The notes beneath the pieces were generated by a model. That model saw nothing but the letters and a program-made list of their open reading frames with translations, was not told the origin of the DNA and searched no databases. A stretch of 47,767 nucleotides of DNA from a virus: the IMG/VR virus record IMGVR_UViG_3300030061_000503, positions 1 through 47,767 of that record. The stretch is one strand, 5' to 3'. Position numbers and translations under genes: made by a program. This document shows, in pieces, positions 9,150-39,969 of this stretch (its first letter is position 1; each line of letters begins with the position of its first letter).

Positions 9150-9189
9150 AGAGGGCTCGGTTTTAATCCAAAAAACAAAGGAGATTTTG

Positions 9190-10701
9190 TTGGATACTGC
9201 AGAAAAACTACACGAAATATTTTACGGCTCTGCTAGGGCGCATGGTAGTTTTATTGTAGGTACTAGTTCCTTTGGTCAGAAAACACAAGGTACTGCTAAA
9301 ACTATAAAGACTATGGGGTCTAGTGTCAAGCACTGGCAGGATCATTTAAAAGGTGTTCGTGGACTAGGCGTAGTACCCATAGATGAGGAGAATTATGTTA
9401 GGTGGGGAGCTGTCGATATAGATACATACTCCTTAGATATCAAAAAGTTAGTATTAAAAATAGAAGAATTTAAACTACCGCTAGTTGTCTGTAGAAGCAA
9501 AAGCGGTGGTGCTCATGTATATTGTTTCCTAAAAGATAAAGCACCTGCTGGAGACATGCAGGATAAACTTAGAGAAATTTCTGCTGGTTTAGGTTACGGT
9601 GGTGTCGAGATATTTCCTAAACAACGAGAAGTATTAGTGGATAGAGGGGATATAGGCTCTTGGTTAAATATGCCATATTTTGAAGGCGATGAATCATTAA
9701 GGTATGGTTACGATACTAAGGGCGAAGCTTTGACAGTGGTTGATTTTATAAAATTTGTAGAAGAAAGATCACTTACTTATGAAGAACTAACAGGTCTAGA
9801 GGTTCCTACTCTCGACGATATAAAAGATGGTCCACCTTGTCTACAAGTATTACTTAAACAAGGGTTTCCACAAGGCACTAGAAATAATGGTTTATTTAAT
9901 GTCGGGGTATATCTTAAAAAGTCTACACCTGAAACATGGCAAACAGACATAGAAGAATACAACCGTAAGTATGTCCAACCACCATTACCTGCCCAAGAAG
10001 TTATGACTTTGATAGGTACGCTCAAGAAAAAAGAATACAATTATAAGTGTAGTGATGAACCTATTAGATCTTACTGTAACGTGGCTAAATGTCGTGGGTG
10101 TAAGTTCGGTATAGGTGGTAGTAATGCTACACCTACCTTTTCTAGTCTATCTAAATTAGACACTAAACCACCGTTATGGTTTTTATCTATAGATGATAAA
10201 AGATTAGAACTTACTACAGAACAATTACAGAATCAAATTAAGTTTCAGAGAGCGTGTATGGAAATACTTAATATGATGCCTCCTAAAATGCAAGAAAGAG
10301 CATGGCAAACTTTGATACAAACTTTAATGGACGGTGGTATGGAAATTATAGAGGTCAGTGATGACGTCACCATTGAAGGTCAGTTTATGGAATTACTTGA
10401 ATCTTTCTGCACAGATATGGCTCAAGCTAATACTCGAGACGAGATACTATTGGGTAAACCGTACACAGAAGAGGGTAAAACCTACTTTAGAATCAAAGAC
10501 TTAAAAGAGTATTTAGTGAAGCACAGGTTTACAGATATGGAAACTAACCGCATCGCCTCTAAGTTAAGGGATTTAAAAGCAGAACATAAGTTTTGGAATA
10601 TAAAAGGTAGAGGAACTAATGTCTGGTATATTAATGAGTTTGAGTATAGGACTGAGGATACTTCTTTAGAAACTAAGAACTTTACAGAAGGCGGTTTATA
10701 A
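9190..10701 (+). CDS. Archaeo-eukaryotic-type (AEP) DNA primase
   Basis: 503 residues from TTG 9190; the SD AAAGGAG ends six bases upstream, while the in-frame TTG at 9187 would be only three bases away. Primase motifs: DID (76-78) as metal-binding motif I, SKSGGAH (103-109) as the S-x-H motif, and EIFPKQ (140-145) as the third region. A four-cysteine cluster at 287, 296, 301 and 304 likely binds zinc. The C-terminal third is helical and may be a PriCT-like or winged-helix part. It should make primers for the family A polymerase; the UvrD-like helicase gene follows directly with a one-base overlap. Confidence 0.85.
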   Translation: MDTAEKLHEIFYGSARAHGSFIVGTSSFGQKTQGTAKTIKTMGSSVKHWQDHLKGVRGLGVVPIDEENYVRWGAVDIDTYSLDIKKLVLKIEEFKLPLVVCRSKSGGAHVYCFLKDKAPAGDMQDKLREISAGLGYGGVEIFPKQREVLVDRGDIGSWLNMPYFEGDESLRYGYDTKGEALTVVDFIKFVEERSLTYEELTGLEVPTLDDIKDGPPCLQVLLKQGFPQGTRNNGLFNVGVYLKKSTPETWQTDIEEYNRKYVQPPLPAQEVMTLIGTLKKKEYNYKCSDEPIRSYCNVAKCRGCKFGIGGSNATPTFSSLSKLDTKPPLWFLSIDDKRLELTTEQLQNQIKFQRACMEILNMMPPKMQERAWQTLIQTLMDGGMEIIEVSDDVTIEGQFMELLESFCTDMAQANTRDEILLGKPYTEEGKTYFRIKDLKEYLVKHRFTDMETNRIASKLRDLKAEHKFWNIKGRGTNVWYINEFEYRTEDTSLETKNFTEGGL

Positions 10702-12247: not shown

Positions 12248-12709
12248 ATGAATATATTTAAACTAGACAATACTATACAAGGCTGTGCTCAAATGCACTG
12301 CGATAAACACGTATCTAAAATGATACTTGAGTCTGCTCAAATGTTATGTACAGCTATGTGGTCTAATGATGAAGAAGCACCTTACAAACCTGTACATGCT
12401 AAACACCCTTGTACCTTATGGGCTGGAGCTAGTCTTGATAACTGGCTGTGGTTAAAAGACTTAACTATATACTTAAACGAGGAGTTTTGCTGGCGATACG
12501 ATAGAACTGTCAATCATAAATCAGCAGACGTTGTACTTTCTTTACCTAACCCGAATATAAAAAGTAAAGGATTACAACAGCACCCTCAGTGTATGCCTGA
12601 TGAGTACAAAGTTGAAAATGACGCAATAAAAGCGTATCGTAATTATTATATAGGAGAAAAGCATTTCGCTAAGTGGACTAAACGAGGAGTACCAGAATGG
12701 TATATGTAA
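12248..12709 (+). CDS. Conserved phage protein, first gene of modification cluster
   Basis: 153 residues. The N-terminal CDKHVSKMILESAQMLCTA stretch (18-36), the HPCTLWAG segment and the C-terminal MPDEYK, AYRNYY, FAKW and P-x-W blocks are a conserved phage family I recognise, often found beside thymidylate synthase-like and DNA-modification genes. Some databases loosely label it a pyrimidine-dimer glycosylase, but I see no catalytic match to DenV, so function is unassigned. Start ATG 12248 has no clear ribosome site. It overlaps the next gene by 13 bases. Confidence 0.7.
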   Translation: MNIFKLDNTIQGCAQMHCDKHVSKMILESAQMLCTAMWSNDEEAPYKPVHAKHPCTLWAGASLDNWLWLKDLTIYLNEEFCWRYDRTVNHKSADVVLSLPNPNIKSKGLQQHPQCMPDEYKVENDAIKAYRNYYIGEKHFAKWTKRGVPEWYM

Positions 12710-13539
12710 ATACAAAGTGGGATAACGTAGAAAATTTTTTCGGTTATATAAACGAAAGACATTTTATATATTTAAAACGACAGGACAATGAAAAACCGCC
12801 TTGGACTGAGGACAAGATAATACAGACCTATAGTTTCTGTAATGTTTATAGGGAATTAGATAAGGTTACTATATGGATAAGGGAGAACTGGAAAGAACCA
12901 TATAAAGACCACCCCCATATACCTTTCGCTATGTCTGTGGCACGTCAGATAAACCACCCACCAACTTTAAAAGCGATAGGTTTTCCTGAGTCATGGGATC
13001 CTACACGTGTAAAAGCTATAATGCAGGATAGAATGGATAATAAAAAGAAAGTGTACACTGGTGCGTATATGTTAACTGGCACTTTAGGAGGAACTAAGGT
13101 AGAACAAACTATAGATAAAATACTCACACCTTTATTCAATAACCCACCGAAACTTTACGAAGACAGTTTAGAAAAAACTTGGAAAGAATATCTACCGTAT
13201 GCTGGATTCAGTGGTTTTATGGCTTATGAGGTTGTAACTGATTTGAGATTTACAAAGCATTTAGAAAATGCTAAAGATATCATGACATGGGCTAATGCTG
13301 GTCCAGGAGCGAAACGTGGACTCAATAGAATACATAATAGAAAATTAGAGCAAACTATAAAGAAAGACCAGTTGACCGCAGAGATGAAAGAACTGTTAGA
13401 TGTCTCTGATGATTACCTAGACTTAGCGTTACCGCGTTTAGAAATGAGAGAAATAGAGCATTGCTTGTGTGAGTTTGATAAGTATGAGAGAGTACGTTTA
13501 GGTGAAGGCAGACCGAGGTCAAAATATAAGTATGGATAA
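12697..13539 (+). CDS. 5-hmdU DNA kinase helical-domain / aGPT-PPlase-like base-modification protein
   Basis: 280 residues. The conserved run is INERHFIYLKR (18-28), PWT, SFCNVYRELDKVTIWIRENW (46-65), FAMSVARQINHP (77-88), VYTGAYM (119-125), GFMAYEVVTDLR (173-184) and TWANAGPGAKRGLNRI (197-212). This fits the helical family that Iyer, Aravind and colleagues placed in phage thymine-hypermodification operons (5-hmdU DNA kinase helical domain, related to the alpha-glutamyl/putrescinyl thymine pyrophosphorylases). The GPGAKRGLNRI stretch resembles a helix-hairpin-helix DNA contact. There is no P-loop, so it is not itself a kinase. Neighbours (TAGT-like, Nmad1-like, ThyA-like) support a role on hydroxymethyluracil in DNA. 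Exact reaction unknown. Confidence 0.7.
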   Translation: MVYVNTKWDNVENFFGYINERHFIYLKRQDNEKPPWTEDKIIQTYSFCNVYRELDKVTIWIRENWKEPYKDHPHIPFAMSVARQINHPPTLKAIGFPESWDPTRVKAIMQDRMDNKKKVYTGAYMLTGTLGGTKVEQTIDKILTPLFNNPPKLYEDSLEKTWKEYLPYAGFSGFMAYEVVTDLRFTKHLENAKDIMTWANAGPGAKRGLNRIHNRKLEQTIKKDQLTAEMKELLDVSDDYLDLALPRLEMREIEHCLCEFDKYERVRLGEGRPRSKYKYG

Positions 13540-14038
13540 TTTAGATAATTTATTTGAGGTAGTGCGTGGCGGTACAATAAAAAGGTATCACACGCTAGAA
13601 ACCATTGGTGAACAGTCCGTAGGTGCTCACTCTTGGGGTGTGGCTATAATACTACAGTATCTAGAACCTAATATAAGTAAGATAGCTATATTAAAGGCAC
13701 TTACCCATGATGTAGCTGAACTATATACAGGAGATATTCCCGCACCTGTTAAATGGGATAACCCTGATTTAATCAAATCATTAAAATCAATAGAGCTTGC
13801 TTACGAGAAGAAACTAGACATAGATTACAGCACTGTTTTAGGAAAAAAGGAAGCACTTTTATTTAAACAAGCCGACATGTTTGAACTGTTATTTTTCTGT
13901 ATGCGTCAAAGAAAAATGGGTAACACTAATATGAACATGGTATTTAGCAACGGTGTTGAATACTTAGCAAATCAAAAGTTAAATAAACGCGGTTCAAATC
14001 TACTCGGTAAACTTATAGAGGAGTATGGAGGCATATGA
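13532..14038 (+). CDS. HD-domain 5'-nucleotidase-like hydrolase (YfbR type)
   Basis: 168 residues from ATG 13532, which overlaps the previous stop; an in-frame GTG at 13502 adds ten unlikely residues. HD-superfamily metal ligands: H33 in AHSW, H59-D60 in THDVAEL, then GDIPAPVK, and a later Asp in KQADMFE. The layout resembles YfbR/HDDC2 deoxynucleoside 5'-monophosphatases. In this cluster it could remove canonical dTMP or recycle nucleotides so that a modified pyrimidine replaces thymine; that is inference from context. Confidence 0.75.
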   Translation: MDNLDNLFEVVRGGTIKRYHTLETIGEQSVGAHSWGVAIILQYLEPNISKIAILKALTHDVAELYTGDIPAPVKWDNPDLIKSLKSIELAYEKKLDIDYSTVLGKKEALLFKQADMFELLFFCMRQRKMGNTNMNMVFSNGVEYLANQKLNKRGSNLLGKLIEEYGGI

Positions 14039-14355
14039 AAAAGCAGAAAAAATTTCAAGAAATGCTAGACATAGTTGAACAAGATGTAGACGAGCTTGTA
14101 GAAGCAGAGAAAAGTTATGGCAATAGTTGGCGTAAGCGTGGCGGTATCGGTGCGTTTATGATGCTGGCTCGTAAATGGGATAGGATAGAGAATCAAGTTA
14201 GATGCCATAACTTTGATATATTCTCTGCGATAAGAAATGATACAAGACCAGAAGGTATCATGGACGACATACACGATTTAAGAAGATATTTAATATTAGT
14301 AGAGCAGTACGCAACTAGGAGCGATGATGAAGATATACATACCGACGAGGGGTAG
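14035..14355 (+). CDS. Nmad1-like (DUF1599) nucleotide-modification-associated protein
   Basis: 106 residues. SYGNSWRKRGGIGAFMML (23-40), ARKWDRIENQV and the C-terminal GIMDDIHDLRRYLILVE helix match, from memory, the DUF1599 family renamed nucleotide modification associated domain 1. It starts at ATG inside an ATGA overlap with the HD gene and its end overlaps the glycosyltransferase start, so all are co-translated. The family's chemistry is not established; a role in making or handling modified nucleotides is presumed from its repeated linkage to such genes. Confidence 0.65.
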   Translation: MKKQKKFQEMLDIVEQDVDELVEAEKSYGNSWRKRGGIGAFMMLARKWDRIENQVRCHNFDIFSAIRNDTRPEGIMDDIHDLRRYLILVEQYATRSDDEDIHTDEG

Positions 14356-15118
14356 ACCCGATAACCAAGAAACACTCAAGTGGTTTCCAGAAAGCATGAT
14401 TAAAGATGGAACAGTAGTGTTAGCCATAGATGAAGACGAGCAGGATAAATACACTAAATACCCAGATGTAGAAAAGTTGATAGTCCCTTCATTCATTAAA
14501 GGTATTAGTTATAAAAGAAAATACATAATAGAACAAAGTTACGATCCACGTGTAGTTATGCTAGACGATGATTTACGGTTTTATGTCCGTAAGAGCGCGG
14601 ACGATTGGCATTTAAGATATGCAGAGCCAGAAGAATATCCTGCTTTATTTGGGTTACTTGATGAATGGATGGATAAAGGTTACGCTCATGTAGGGATAAG
14701 TGCTAGAGAAGGTAATAATCGAGTAGAAGAGTTAGCCGTAGAGAATACTAGATATATGAGAGTATTGGGGTATAATCTAGAAGCTTTCCCTAAAGATATT
14801 GAGTGGGGTAGAACTCGGGTGATGGAAGATTTTGATATATCTTTACAACTGCTTAGGAGAGGTAAATCCTGTAAGGTAAGTTATTTCTATGCTCAGGGTC
14901 AAAAGTCTTCTAATGCTGACGGTGGCTGTAGTGAGTGGAGAACTATCGACGTACATAACGCAGGTGCTGATAGGCTACATGAACTCCACCCTAATTGTGT
15001 TAGGGTGGTAGAAAAACAAACTAAAACTGCGTGGAATGGTTTACCTCGTAGGGATGTAATAGTAGGATGGAAAAAAGCATACAAGGAAGGTGTAGAATAT
15101 GCAAACAATAACAGTTAG
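14327..15118 (+). CDS. TAGT-like (TET-associated) GT-A glycosyltransferase
   Basis: 263 residues. ATG 14327 is preferred over ATG 14324 because the AGGAG is five bases away. N-terminal KIYIPTRGRP (2-11) is the GT-A nucleotide-sugar start; MLDDDL (78-83) gives the metal-binding DxD; GISAREGNN (123-131), MEDFD (166-170), GGCSEWRT (199-206) and a C-terminal VGWKKAYKEG follow. This pattern resembles the TAGT family described beside TET/JBP enzymes in phages, which transfers sugars to hydroxymethylated pyrimidines in DNA. No TET/JBP gene is visible here, so the hydroxymethyl group would have to come from the nucleotide pool. Glycosyltransferase fold is fairly sure; DNA as acceptor is inferred. Confidence 0.7.
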   Translation: MKIYIPTRGRPDNQETLKWFPESMIKDGTVVLAIDEDEQDKYTKYPDVEKLIVPSFIKGISYKRKYIIEQSYDPRVVMLDDDLRFYVRKSADDWHLRYAEPEEYPALFGLLDEWMDKGYAHVGISAREGNNRVEELAVENTRYMRVLGYNLEAFPKDIEWGRTRVMEDFDISLQLLRRGKSCKVSYFYAQGQKSSNADGGCSEWRTIDVHNAGADRLHELHPNCVRVVEKQTKTAWNGLPRRDVIVGWKKAYKEGVEYANNNS

Positions 15119-16136
15119 AAATGTACATGAAGCACTGCCCAGAGGTCTAGATTATCTAGATCAAAGCGGAGTATTATTAGACAGTAGGAACGGTATGATG
15201 TATGAAGCACCGTGTCCCGTCACCACTGTTTATAAAAAACCTGATGAACGAGTAGTTTTCTGGGCGCATCGTAACGCTAACCCTTATTTTCATTTTATAG
15301 AAGGGTTATGGATGTTGAAAGGCGGTAAAGATTTAGAAACTGTAGAGTGGTATGCTAAAAGCATGAGAAACTACAGTGACGATGGTAATATTTTGTGGGG
15401 AGCCTATGGTTGGAGGTGGCGTAGTTTTTTCCAGCAAGACCAGTTAAAAGTAATTATTGGGATGCTTAGGAAAAACCCAGACGATAGGAGAGCGGTCTTA
15501 CAAATGTGGAGTATAAAAGATTTAGCTCGTCAAGGTAAAGATGTGCCTTGTAATACTTGTATATATTTTAAGATACGAGATGGTTTACTAAACATGACTG
15601 TATCTAACAGGTCTAATGATGTAATATGGGGTGCGTATGGTGCTAACGCAGTACACATGTCCATGCTTCAAGAATATATGGCACGTAGGATTGGTGTAGG
15701 GATAGGTGTGTATAATCAAGTGAGCGACAGCTATCACGCATATAAAGATATTTTCGATGATCTTTTACAGAAGTTTGCTGAAGATGATATACTAGACTAC
15801 TATGTTCAATCATTACCGCAAAGCGTATCAAGCATGAATCCCTACAGAACTGGGCAGGTAGAACCTTACCCCATGATATCTCAGTACTGTACAGAAACAT
15901 GGGATTATGAGTTAGGGTTATTTTTCCGCAGAAAGCCACTAGAAAAGTCAAGTCTTAAACATAAAGATAAGTTTAGAAAAGCAGATCCTTTCTGGGCAGA
16001 AGTAGCCATACCTATACAAGACTCTTGGGAATACTGGAAGGAAGGTAACATAAGTTCTGCCATAGATAAACTAGAGGATTGTAAAGCTACTGACTGGAAA
16101 AAAGCATGCGTGGAGTGGCTAGAGAGGAAAGTATGA
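15099..16136 (+). CDS. ThyA-family enzyme: thymidylate synthase or dUMP hydroxymethylase
   Basis: 345 residues. ThyA-fold motifs: FIEGLWML with E68, NILWGAYGWRWR (97-108), RRAVLQMW, catalytic C151 in VPCNTCIYF, NRSNDVIWGAYGAN (170-183) and SYHAY (211-215). Two things differ from ordinary thymidylate synthase. The PCHxxxQF box is PCNTCIYF, closer to T4 dCMP hydroxymethylase, and the usual C-terminal Met-Ala-Val lid is replaced by an 80-residue helical tail. The base-selecting Asn (N183) is kept, which favours dUMP over dCMP. With its neighbours this suggests 5-hydroxymethyl-dUMP synthesis, but plain dTMP synthesis cannot be excluded. It overlaps the glycosyltransferase gene by 20 bases. Confidence 0.88.
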   Translation: MQTITVRNVHEALPRGLDYLDQSGVLLDSRNGMMYEAPCPVTTVYKKPDERVVFWAHRNANPYFHFIEGLWMLKGGKDLETVEWYAKSMRNYSDDGNILWGAYGWRWRSFFQQDQLKVIIGMLRKNPDDRRAVLQMWSIKDLARQGKDVPCNTCIYFKIRDGLLNMTVSNRSNDVIWGAYGANAVHMSMLQEYMARRIGVGIGVYNQVSDSYHAYKDIFDDLLQKFAEDDILDYYVQSLPQSVSSMNPYRTGQVEPYPMISQYCTETWDYELGLFFRRKPLEKSSLKHKDKFRKADPFWAEVAIPIQDSWEYWKEGNISSAIDKLEDCKATDWKKACVEWLERKV

Positions 16137-16813
16137 TACCACAATGGTCGTATAGTAGGTTAGGCTGTTATGAAAGATGCCCTAAGCAAGCAGAATTTAA
16201 GTTTATAAAGAAGATAAAAGAACCTCAACATCCTGCAATGGAAAGAGGTAAAAATATACATCAATTATGTGAAGATTACATAAGAGGAAATATAGAAGAA
16301 ATACCTAAAGAGTTATCAGAGTTTGAAGACGCATTTGATATGCTTAAAGATTTATATCTACACGGTCATGTTATATGTGAAAGTGACTGGGCAATAACTA
16401 CTGAGTGGTCAAAAACAGGGTGGTTTGCTGAAGACACTTGGGGTAGAGCTAAAGTAGATGCGTTTGTATATGAAGAAGGTTTAAGTAAAGAGGCAAGAGT
16501 GATAGATTTTAAAACTGGTAGGTATCAGGGTAATCAAGAAGCACATAGAGAACAGTGTGAATTTTATGGATCTGTGGCTTTGAACAGATACCCCGAGCTA
16601 GAAAGTATAATCACAGAGATGTGGTATTTAGATCATGGTAAGATAGATAGATATGTTTACACACCTGCGAGTATAAAATTTAAGCAAGAAAGGATACATA
16701 ACCGAGCTATGGCTATGACTACTGCAACAGAGTTCCCTGCTAAACCTTCTAAATTTGGTTGTAAATGGTGTTATTTCGGACAACAAAACATGTGTAGAGA
16801 GGCAATTAGTTAA
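16133..16813 (+). CDS. Cas4/RecB-like PD-(D/E)XK nuclease with Cys cluster
   Basis: 226 residues from ATG 16133 (ATGA overlap with the ThyA stop; AGAGG upstream); a longer start at 16106 is unlikely. WSYSRLGCYERCP at the start, ERGKNIH (37-43), AKVDA with D109, and VIDFKTGR with D125 and K127 form the nuclease core. C12/C16 plus C210, C213 and C221 match the iron-sulfur pattern of Cas4/AddB nucleases. There are no cas1/cas2 genes or CRISPR array, so it is a phage exonuclease for recombination or end processing. DNA polymerase follows with a one-base overlap. Confidence 0.87.
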   Translation: MIPQWSYSRLGCYERCPKQAEFKFIKKIKEPQHPAMERGKNIHQLCEDYIRGNIEEIPKELSEFEDAFDMLKDLYLHGHVICESDWAITTEWSKTGWFAEDTWGRAKVDAFVYEEGLSKEARVIDFKTGRYQGNQEAHREQCEFYGSVALNRYPELESIITEMWYLDHGKIDRYVYTPASIKFKQERIHNRAMAMTTATEFPAKPSKFGCKWCYFGQQNMCREAIS

Positions 16814-18696
16814 TGCAGAATCCACTGTTTCCACCTGACGTAGACTGGTCACCGCCTACCTCGTTCCCTGATTTAAGAGGGCAAAAGACCATAGCGATTG
16901 ATTTAGAAACTAAAGATCCATGGCTCATGTCCCATGGTCCAGGTTGGGCATTTAAGGATAGAGGTTTTATTATAGGTATTGCGATAGCTACCGAGGGATA
17001 TAAAGCATACTTTCCTGTGGCTCATGAAGTAGGTGGTAATTTAGATAAAACAGTGGTTTATAGATGGTTGAAAAAACAACTAGAAGCACCTAATGAAAAA
17101 GTATTTCATAACGCTCAGTACGACGTAGGTTGGTTAATGAGAGAAGGATTTACTATCAATGGTAAAATACACGATACTATGATGGCAGCTCCATTGCTCA
17201 ATGAGAATCAGTATGGGTATTCTTTAAACAAGGTAGGTAAAGAATATTTAGGTGAAGAAAAAGATGAGTCCATGTTGATAGAGGCTGCACAGGTGTACGG
17301 TATAAACCCGAAAGCAGAAATGTATAGGCTACCGCCAGAGTATGTAGGAAACTACGCTGAGCAGGACGCAGATTTAACCTACAGGCTATGGAATAAGCTA
17401 AAGGTAAGTATGGCTGGAGAAAATATTCAACCTATATACGAACTAGAGAGTTCTTTATTACCTGTGTTGGTAGATATGCGTATGAGGGGAGTCAGGATAG
17501 ATGTAGATAAATCTCAACAGGTCAAGAAAAAATTAAGACAAGCAGAAAATAAAATAGTCTCTGAAATAAAAAGGTGGTATGGACTAAAACCAGATTTATG
17601 GGCAGCACAATCACTATCACAAGTGTTCGATAGGGCAGGTCTTGAGTATCCTAAAACACCTAAGACCAATGCACCTAGTTTTCAAGCTAAGTGGCTTGAA
17701 GAACATACACACAAACTACCACTAGCGATAGCTAAAGCAAGAAAATTAAACAAAGCACGTACCACATTTATAGACAAGATGATACTAGAACATTTAGTAG
17801 ACGGTAGGATACACGGAGAACTTCACCCTCTCAGGTCTGATGATGGCGGTACTGTTACTGGTAGATTTAGTTGCTCTAAACCTAACCTTCAACAAGTGCC
17901 TGCTAGAGATCCTGAGATTGGTCCACTTATACGAGGTTTATTTATACCAGAAGAGGATTGTCACTGGGGGTGTTTTGATTACTCTCAACAAGAACCTAGA
18001 CTAACGGTGCATTACTCAGTATTAACGCATCAAGAAGGAGCAGAGGAGGCAGCAGCAGATTACTCGGGTGATGCTGACTTTCATCAGATAGTAGCTGATA
18101 TGGCTAATATAACTCGTAAAGAGGCTAAGATTATTAACTTAGGATTAAGTTATGGTATGGGTAAAGAAAAGCTAACCCATCAGCTAGGTATAAGCCCAGA
18201 AGAAGCAGAAGTATTATTTGACCAGTATCATAAGCGAGTGCCTTTTGTCCGTGGATTACGGGACTCTGCAGCTCGTCAGGGGTCAAATAGGGGGTATGTC
18301 AACACTATACTTGGTCGTAAGTGTCGATTTAACCTTTATGAACCAGTAGACAGAAGAGCTCTACCACAACCTTATGAAAAGGCAGTTGAGGAGTACGGAA
18401 CTCAGTTAAGACGTGCGTACACATATAAAGCTATGAATCGTCTTATACAAGGTTCAGCAGCAGATATGACAAAACAAGCAATGCTGGATCTACACAACGA
18501 AGGTATTTTAGCGCATACACAAGTACATGATGAGTTAAATATATCTGTGAAAGATAAACCTGAGTGTGAAAAAGTAATGGAAATAATGCGAGACTGTGTT
18601 AAGTTAAAAGTACCAAACAAAGTTGATGGAGAGATAGGTAAAAACTGGGCAGATGTAACAGACTACAGGAAATATTTCAATGATGAAAAAAGCTAA
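16813..18696 (+). CDS. Family A DNA polymerase with 3'-5' exonuclease
   Basis: 627 residues. Proofreading motifs: D30-E32 in AIDLET, N100/D104 in HNAQYD, Y181/D185 in YAEQD. Polymerase motif A is DYSQQEPR (389-396); motif B is RKEAKIINLGLSYG (435-448), with K439 and Y447 at the E. coli K758 and Y766 positions; motif C is HDEL (572-575). The residue matching E. coli F762 is L443. There is no N-terminal 5'-3' exonuclease domain. This is the replicative polymerase, paired with the AEP primase and SSB-like protein upstream. ATG overlaps the preceding stop (TAATG). Confidence 0.96.
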   Translation: MQNPLFPPDVDWSPPTSFPDLRGQKTIAIDLETKDPWLMSHGPGWAFKDRGFIIGIAIATEGYKAYFPVAHEVGGNLDKTVVYRWLKKQLEAPNEKVFHNAQYDVGWLMREGFTINGKIHDTMMAAPLLNENQYGYSLNKVGKEYLGEEKDESMLIEAAQVYGINPKAEMYRLPPEYVGNYAEQDADLTYRLWNKLKVSMAGENIQPIYELESSLLPVLVDMRMRGVRIDVDKSQQVKKKLRQAENKIVSEIKRWYGLKPDLWAAQSLSQVFDRAGLEYPKTPKTNAPSFQAKWLEEHTHKLPLAIAKARKLNKARTTFIDKMILEHLVDGRIHGELHPLRSDDGGTVTGRFSCSKPNLQQVPARDPEIGPLIRGLFIPEEDCHWGCFDYSQQEPRLTVHYSVLTHQEGAEEAAADYSGDADFHQIVADMANITRKEAKIINLGLSYGMGKEKLTHQLGISPEEAEVLFDQYHKRVPFVRGLRDSAARQGSNRGYVNTILGRKCRFNLYEPVDRRALPQPYEKAVEEYGTQLRRAYTYKAMNRLIQGSAADMTKQAMLDLHNEGILAHTQVHDELNISVKDKPECEKVMEIMRDCVKLKVPNKVDGEIGKNWADVTDYRKYFNDEKS

Positions 18697-39312: not shown

Positions 39313-39542
39313 TGGATCCTATATATCTAATGGAAAAATTTTTAAAAGAACTCCGTCTAAGACAAGCAGACTTAACTGAAGTCTTAAAAACAGGAGGTGT
39401 TCAAGATTGGGAAGGATATCAAAAAGTTCTCGGTGAGTTGACAGGTCTAAGCTCAGCCGAGAGAATATTATTAGACCTGCAAAAAAGTAATGAGGAAAAT
39501 AATGTCAGTAAAGGAAGTTTTGGGAAACGATCCCGCAGGTAG
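39312..39542 (+). CDS. Small helical hypothetical protein
   Basis: 76 residues from ATG 39312, overlapping the previous stop (TAATG). Helical (MEKFLKELRLRQADLTEVL, YQKVLGELTGLSSAERILLDL). Similar short helical proteins occur before GroES in marine phages. It overlaps the next gene by 41 bases. Confidence 0.6.
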   Translation: MDPIYLMEKFLKELRLRQADLTEVLKTGGVQDWEGYQKVLGELTGLSSAERILLDLQKSNEENNVSKGSFGKRSRR

Positions 39543-39969
39543 TTCTATACCAGACCACGTAGATAATTCAAGTCGGTTTAAAAAGAAAGAAACTATAATA
39601 TCTCCTGAATCAGTGGAAGAGGATGAAAGTTTGCTAGAACAACTTCCTTCCCCAACTGGTTATAGAATATTAATTTTACCGTTTAGTCAAAAAGCTATGA
39701 CTAAAGGCGGTATAGCTTTAGCAGAATCCTATGTTGAAAAAGAAAGATTGTCGACTAATGTAGGTTATGTAGTCAGTGTTGGTCCAGATGCATATAAAGA
39801 TAAAAATAAGTTCCCGAACGGTGCTTGGTGTCAAGAAAAGGATTGGGTTATTTTTGGCAGATACGCAGGCGCAAGAATTAAAATAGAGGGTGGCGACTTA
39901 CGTTTATTAAACGACGATGAAATATTAGCCGTAATAGATAACCCAGAAGACGTAAAAACTCCCGTGTAA
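39502..39969 (+). CDS. Phage GroES-like co-chaperonin
   Basis: 155 residues from ATG 39502 (GAGGA upstream; ATG 39490 also in frame). After a 45-residue charged extension comes the Cpn10 fold: TGYRILILPFSQKAMTKGGIAL, then VGYVVSVGPDAYKD, WVIFGRYAGARIKIEGGDLRLL and DEILAVI. It likely caps host GroEL to help fold the capsid protein encoded shortly after. The N-terminal extension is not part of standard GroES. Confidence 0.88.
   Translation: MSVKEVLGNDPAGSSIPDHVDNSSRFKKKETIISPESVEEDESLLEQLPSPTGYRILILPFSQKAMTKGGIALAESYVEKERLSTNVGYVVSVGPDAYKDKNKFPNGAWCQEKDWVIFGRYAGARIKIEGGDLRLLNDDEILAVIDNPEDVKTPV

Follow-up and report, generated by a model that had tools for sequence, protein, structure and literature searches.

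The DNA of phage M6 carries bases derived from 5-hydroxymethyl-deoxyuridine (5-hmdU), and its genome encodes a 5-hmdU DNA kinase (gp54; PF18748), an HMUDK_hel protein (gp55) and an amino-acid:DNA transferase (ADDT; gp51; PF18724), an enzyme that needs the phosphate. In a T-even phage, the gene of a TAGT glycosyltransferase overlaps that of the deoxycytidine monophosphate (dCMP) hydroxymethylase (gene 42) by 4 bases, and the T6 beta-glucosyl-hydroxymethylcytosine (HMC)-alpha-glucosyltransferase is itself a TAGT (PMC13216743). Here, we analysed a stretch of 47,767 nucleotides of viral DNA (IMG/VR record IMGVR_UViG_3300030061_000503; hereafter the window), a single record covering part of a genome whose full length is about 60 kb, in which an HMUDK_hel gene (hereafter hel) is grouped with genes for a TAGT and a ThyA-family enzyme. 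The unusual feature of this cassette is the missing 5-hmdU DNA kinase, a glycosyltransferase being present in its place. The same replacement was found across hel lineages, where the glycosyltransferase and the DNA-base kinase exclude each other, and we consider it fairly probable that the cassette represents a branch of phage thymidine hypermodification in which the base is glycosylated.

The gene association itself is already in print. A 2022 report (PMC9599517) describes, for the HTVC023P-type group, a thymidylate synthase, an aG/PT-PPlase1, a deoxynucleotidase and a beta-glucosyl-HMC-alpha-glucosyltransferase by PolA, and interprets them as thymidine hypermodification of the M6 kind, whose range the glucosyltransferase may extend; in the parts of it considered here, the missing kinase and the exchange of kinase for glycosyltransferase are not discussed. 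No paper pairing aGPT-PPlase with a glycosyltransferase was found in the literature searched, which did not cover the central thymidine-hypermodification papers, and a prior mention of the exchange is possible.

The cassette and its missing kinase

The five genes that the original prediction had assigned to a thymine hypermodification and glycosylation cluster were all found, on the + strand between 12697 and 16136, each overlapping the next; the range it had given for them (12248 to 16136) also takes in a sixth gene. Pfam upheld four of the five family names. The first gene (12697-13539) encodes HMUDK_hel (aGPT-PPlase1; PF18723, 1.9e-45), the proposed base-presenting partner of the glycosyltransferase, which has 39% identity to M6 gp55 and no P-loop; it is not the ADDT (PF18724). 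It is followed by a YfbR-like HD-domain 5'-deoxynucleotidase (13502-14038; PF12917, 8.7e-16), homologous to M6 gp59, and by a small conserved protein of an unnamed family without Pfam match (14035-14355). The TAGT (14324-15118; PF20691, 1.3e-26) and the ThyA-family enzyme (15099-16136; PF00303 Thymidylat_synt, 1.1e-19), a proposed deoxyuridine monophosphate (dUMP) 5-hydroxymethylase (C151, E68, N183) with 47% identity to M6 gp58, complete the block. Values of dN/dS, calculated against two close relatives, ranged from 0.03 to 0.18 across all block genes, which are therefore maintained under purifying selection, and the hel-TAGT-ThyA cassette was found again in dozens of contigs; together, these two results indicate that the cluster is not a chance assembly.

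The TAGT-like nature of the fourth protein, for which a start at 14327 had been proposed, was borne out by profile placement. The protein scored 94.3 bits against a curated cut-off of 27.5 for PF20691 and also falls in PHROG 842, the group of the T-even DNA glucosyltransferases. Its DDD motif (D81-D83) includes the metal-site aspartates D81 and D82, which, like R89, D169 and W249, are invariant in 26 relatives, and its predicted structure (pLDDT 93.7) retrieved GT-A folds (TarP and N-acetylgalactosamine (GalNAc) transferases) at a probability of 1.00. We propose that this enzyme would transfer a sugar to a hydroxymethylpyrimidine in DNA.

Besides the relatives of M6 gp55, gp58 (ThyA), gp59 (HD) and gp62 (PolA), the window holds no relative of M6 gp51 to gp54, and its only Walker A motif belongs to a UvrD helicase. 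The kinase model PF18748, for which M6 and others served as positive controls, matched neither the window nor any TAGT-bearing record, including relatives of 59-65 kb, and no match to either kinase model (PF18748, PF18751) was obtained in the other glycosyltransferase-bearing records searched whole. Likewise, the ADDT model PF18724 matched M6 and three other kinase records and was absent from the window and from all TAGT-bearing records. Across 45 records with hel or TAGT, each searched in full, 36 had a TAGT, 5 the kinase and none both; the 4 that carried an ADDT all had the kinase.

The original prediction had regarded as unusual a TAGT with no TET/JBP oxygenase in view. A search with the Tet_JBP model gave no match in the window and 44 related records, but matched no positive control either and is thus uncalibrated. 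Such an arrangement is ordinary, as illustrated by the T6 TAGT, by the T-even TAGT beside gene 42, and by the 288 of 753 surveyed phage genomes with a TAGT but no alpha- or beta-glucosyltransferase (PMC13216743). The predicted route, in which 5-hmdU would be made in the nucleotide pool and later glycosylated in DNA, remains the best reading of the parts; the unusual point is the missing kinase and not the lack of an oxygenase.

Exchange of kinase and glycosyltransferase beside hel

We examined the neighbourhood of hel in a sample drawn from IMG/VR and GenBank phages by five scans, four with hel and one with TAGT (best 80 matches per scan); the sample is biased in that one scan began from TAGT. 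Among 305 hel ORFs (open reading frames), a kinase was found within 6 kb of 101 and a glycosyltransferase (TAGT or GT-B) within 6 kb of 158, while 46 had neither and none had both. Clustering at 75% identity yielded 109 hel clusters, 108 of which were placed in a quick tree with some long branches. These 108 fell into those with (i) a kinase (n = 59), (ii) a TAGT (n = 20), (iii) a GT-B (n = 5), (iv) a GT-B and a TAGT in different members (n = 1), and (v) neither partner (n = 23). The separation of 59 kinase from 26 glycosyltransferase clusters, with none holding both, was highly significant when kinship was ignored (Fisher P = 8e-12), and independent pairs on the hel tree were opposite wherever they differed (paired sign test, median P = 0.008-0.016). 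The tree required at least 13 switches between kinase and glycosyltransferase; at 60% identity or below, kinase and glycosyltransferase loci share hel clusters, but never one locus.

Two further markers followed this division. ADDT was found near 41 of the 59 kinase clusters and near none of the 26 glycosyltransferase clusters. By an independent motif test, a small P-loop ORF lay near hel in 51/59 kinase clusters and 5/26 glycosyltransferase clusters, most of the latter five resembling, by eye, nucleotide kinases or accidental motif hits and not DNA kinases.

In loci L146, L169, L142, L184 and L257, hel has a GT-B-type gene immediately upstream or close by, the calls in L142 and L184 being based on mutual relation and appearance, with no Pfam match. 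Within the pelagiphage lineage, one locus (L140:10797-13609) has, in place of the TAGT, cupin-like, FkbM methyltransferase, GT-B and dUTPase-like genes between hel and ThyA. In L148 (1-5170), the neighbours of hel are a fragment resembling a GT-B, a deacetylase judged PIG-L-like by eye, an adenosine phosphosulfate (APS)-kinase-like protein with a P-loop and a sulfotransferase-like protein, followed by ThyA and HD genes; this gene content suggests that the sugar on the DNA is deacetylated or sulfated. In L257 (5848-8879), within a kinase-rich hel clade, a GT-B and a PIG-L de-N-acetylase (Pfam 2.9e-4, under the cut-off) stand directly upstream of hel, and perhaps reflect a recent switch to a sugar, which might be deacetylated N-acetylglucosamine.

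Proposed pathway and competing explanations

According to the pathway that we propose, the ThyA-family enzyme would convert dUMP to 5-hydroxymethyl-dUMP in the nucleotide pool, and host or phage kinases would raise this product to the triphosphate. The HD nucleotidase is proposed to deplete competing deoxynucleoside monophosphates, and the 14035 protein would also tune the pool. The family A DNA polymerase encoded nearby (16813-18696, + strand; PF00476, 1.4e-62), a homolog of M6 gp62, would need to incorporate 5-hmdUTP, the triphosphate form, into DNA. HMUDK_hel would then bind, and probably flip, 5-hydroxymethyluracil (5-hmU) in DNA, presenting the base to the TAGT for transfer of a sugar from a nucleotide-sugar to its hydroxyl. 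Sugar transfer would thereby take the place of the steps in which M6-type phages phosphorylate the base and attach an amino acid.

The 14035 protein had been labelled Nmad1-like, a name that was not confirmed: no Nmad model matched it or nine of its relatives at E <= 5. It belongs to a conserved family (66 non-redundant relatives) with the motif YGxSWRKRG...ARKWDR...DDIRDLRRYL. A profile built from short ORFs only, with the ThyA-fused ORFs left out, detected the same domain (about 1e-6) fused C-terminally to the ThyA of LuckyBarnes, Montesquieu and the metagenomic phages L200 and L203, and this fusion ties the family to the same pathway.

The role given to hel draws on its conservation and fusions. 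Residues R21, N49, R52, D55, G202, G204, C258, E259, K262 and R265 are among those invariant in 64 hel proteins from both kinase and glycosyltransferase loci, and in Bacillus phage Goe26 hel is fused to the kinase, which places its action at the first transfer step. The simplest reading is that hel is a shared DNA-base presenting protein, serving whichever transferase is there. More tentatively, and with somewhat less than an even chance of being right, HMUDK_hel may be a general adaptor for 5-hydroxymethylpyrimidines in DNA, its partner being swapped between a DNA kinase, a GT-A TAGT and a GT-B, sometimes with added sugar-tailoring enzymes; these may include the PIG-L deacetylase, FkbM methyltransferase, APS-kinase-like and sulfotransferase-like proteins.

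Several observations weigh against a glycosylating branch in which hel presents the base. By the profiles used, 23 of the 108 hel clusters have neither partner, although three of them (L148, L203 and L211) have glycosyltransferase-like neighbours by eye. The complete circular 40 kb genome of the Caudoviricetes phage ctUhy936 (L003) carries a TAGT, a uracil-type ThyA and an HD gene but no hel, so that a TAGT does not strictly require hel alongside it. Divergent kinases give low scores with the model PF18748 (9e-5 for PaMx11), and in a partial window a distant gene could be missed. Sequence gives no certain distinction between a thymidylate synthase and a dUMP hydroxymethylase. Finally, the T6 TAGT acts on glucosyl-HMC, adding the second sugar and not the first (PMC13216743).

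The strongest competitor, which we nevertheless hold to be unlikely, is a cytosine version in which the ThyA-family enzyme is a dCMP hydroxymethylase and the TAGT glycosylates 5-hydroxymethylcytosine (5-hmC) as in T-even phages, where the TAGT gene likewise adjoins that of the hydroxymethylase. The best match of the window enzyme in the PDB is indeed the CMP 5-hydroxymethylase MilA (1.8e-24), with thymidylate synthases behind (1.9e-15). The catalytic E, C, R, D, H and Y are conserved throughout the loci compared. The cytosine determinant of T4 is Asp179 (PMC6400193), whereas N183 is found in the window enzyme, within a loop (GAYGAN) that is the same in M6. Compared with T4 and thymidylate synthase, this loop has one extra residue, and the match is therefore imperfect. 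The uracil-type Asn was present in 14/18 TAGT, 5/5 GT-B and 50/50 kinase loci. A cytosine-type Asp occurred in four hel+TAGT loci, all from a single hel clade (L182, L183, L190 and L185; three LGLPYD and one FPYD), which suggests that a 5-hmC version of the system, with the same partners, may exist in those four.

We regard as rather improbable the explanation that a hidden or host kinase is at work, hel still serving 5-hmdU phosphorylation while the TAGT sugars something else or the phosphorylated base. In phage SP-15, a hypermodified thymine does bear a sugar-phosphate, and hel is named for the kinase and can be fused to it; yet neither Pfam kinase model matched the glycosyltransferase-bearing records searched, 21 of the 26 glycosyltransferase clusters lack a small P-loop ORF near hel, and ADDT is always missing where a glycosyltransferase is present.

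Similarly improbable, in our judgement, is a TAGT acting second, as in T6, on a base that an earlier-acting enzyme, so far unrecognised and possibly hel, has already modified. In LuckyBarnes, two TAGT genes stand in tandem, and the predicted hel structure (pLDDT 94.7), which in the viral structure library BFVD matched the SP10 5-hmdU DNA kinase and a PhiW-14 protein, also matched an ADDT there (6.7e-4). Its best fold match in the PDB was the PaMx11 glycinyltransferase PUGT (E 1.4), followed by a 3-methyladenine DNA glycosylase, both non-significant, and a PDB sequence search with hel gave no match. Against such a role, hel is common to kinase and glycosyltransferase systems, so any chemistry of its own must suit both, and the window cassette has no second glycosyltransferase.

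Least probable of all is a plain thymidylate synthase for nucleotide supply beside a glycosyltransferase remodelling the host surface, with no DNA modification: glycosyltransferases are common in phages and the TAGT fold resembles teichoic-acid and GalNAc GT-A enzymes, but the sequence falls in PF20691 and PHROG 842, and numerous unrelated phages carry the TAGT together with hel and ThyA, to the exclusion of the DNA kinase.

Phage context and comparison with known systems

The terminase of the window has 61% identity to that of Pelagibacter phage HTVC027P and 54% to that of HTVC023P, and its capsid protein 67-70% identity to their counterparts, which identifies the window as a fragment of an HTVC023P-type pelagiphage; the host is probably a SAR11 bacterium. 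The cassette was not found in these two cultured members. The sixth gene upstream (12248-12709, + strand; PHROG 624 'DNA binding protein', phrog_624 2.8e-48), of uncertain role in the cassette, is likewise absent from both and is conserved in most cassette-bearing pelagiphage relatives. Downstream, the replication block continues with a PD-(D/E)XK nuclease (16106-16813, + strand; PF12705, 9.1e-16). Elsewhere, the UvrD helicase adjoins a primase whose archaeo-eukaryotic primase domain is of the TOTE type (9187-10701; PF22548, 7.6e-9), and a GroES-like co-chaperonin is encoded at 39490-39969 (PF00166, 1.3e-13), a GroES-annotated gene being also present in HTVC023P and HTVC027P.

Two cultured phages, Brevibacterium phage LuckyBarnes and Microbacterium phage Morrigan, have hel, ThyA and TAGT with no PF18748 or PF18751 kinase, and make the glycosylating-branch reading directly testable. 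They differ from the window in that LuckyBarnes has its TAGT pair and a ThyA fused to the 14035-type domain, whereas Morrigan encodes a thymidylate kinase and its TAGT is divergent. Another cultured-host phage of the same kind of comparison, Microbacterium phage Golden, pairs hel with a P-loop kinase. Should the reading hold, the Pfam '5-hmdU DNA kinase, helical domain' would be redefined as a shared target-recognition module, and a genomic rule would follow, namely that the kinase or glycosyltransferase beside hel predicts the thymine decoration of a phage. The adaptor proposal, if true, would imply an undescribed family of decorated glycosyl-5-hmU bases in phages, with cytosine equivalents in one clade.

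Compared with the thymidine hypermodification of M6, YuA and PaMx11 (5-aminoethyl-deoxyuridine (5-NedU) and relatives), the window has homologous ThyA, hel, HD and PolA genes in a similar block, but no DNA kinase, ADDT, pyridoxal-phosphate or radical S-adenosylmethionine tailoring enzymes were found, and a TAGT is present instead. With the glucosyl-hmC of the T-even phages it would share a hydroxymethyl base made in the pool, a TAGT adjoining the hydroxymethylase gene and, as far as the uncalibrated search tells, the lack of a TET enzyme, while differing in its uracil-type ThyA, in the presence of HMUDK_hel and in that no alpha- or beta-glucosyltransferase was recognised. The predicted product, an O-glycosylated 5-hmU in DNA, is that of base J in kinetoplastids (JBP and JGT), except that the hydroxyl would here be made on the nucleotide and not by oxidation of thymine in DNA, and that the glycosyltransferase is another one. 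If confirmed, the cassette would represent a phage version of trypanosome base J, made in some widespread ocean viruses by a pool route and not by an oxygenase.

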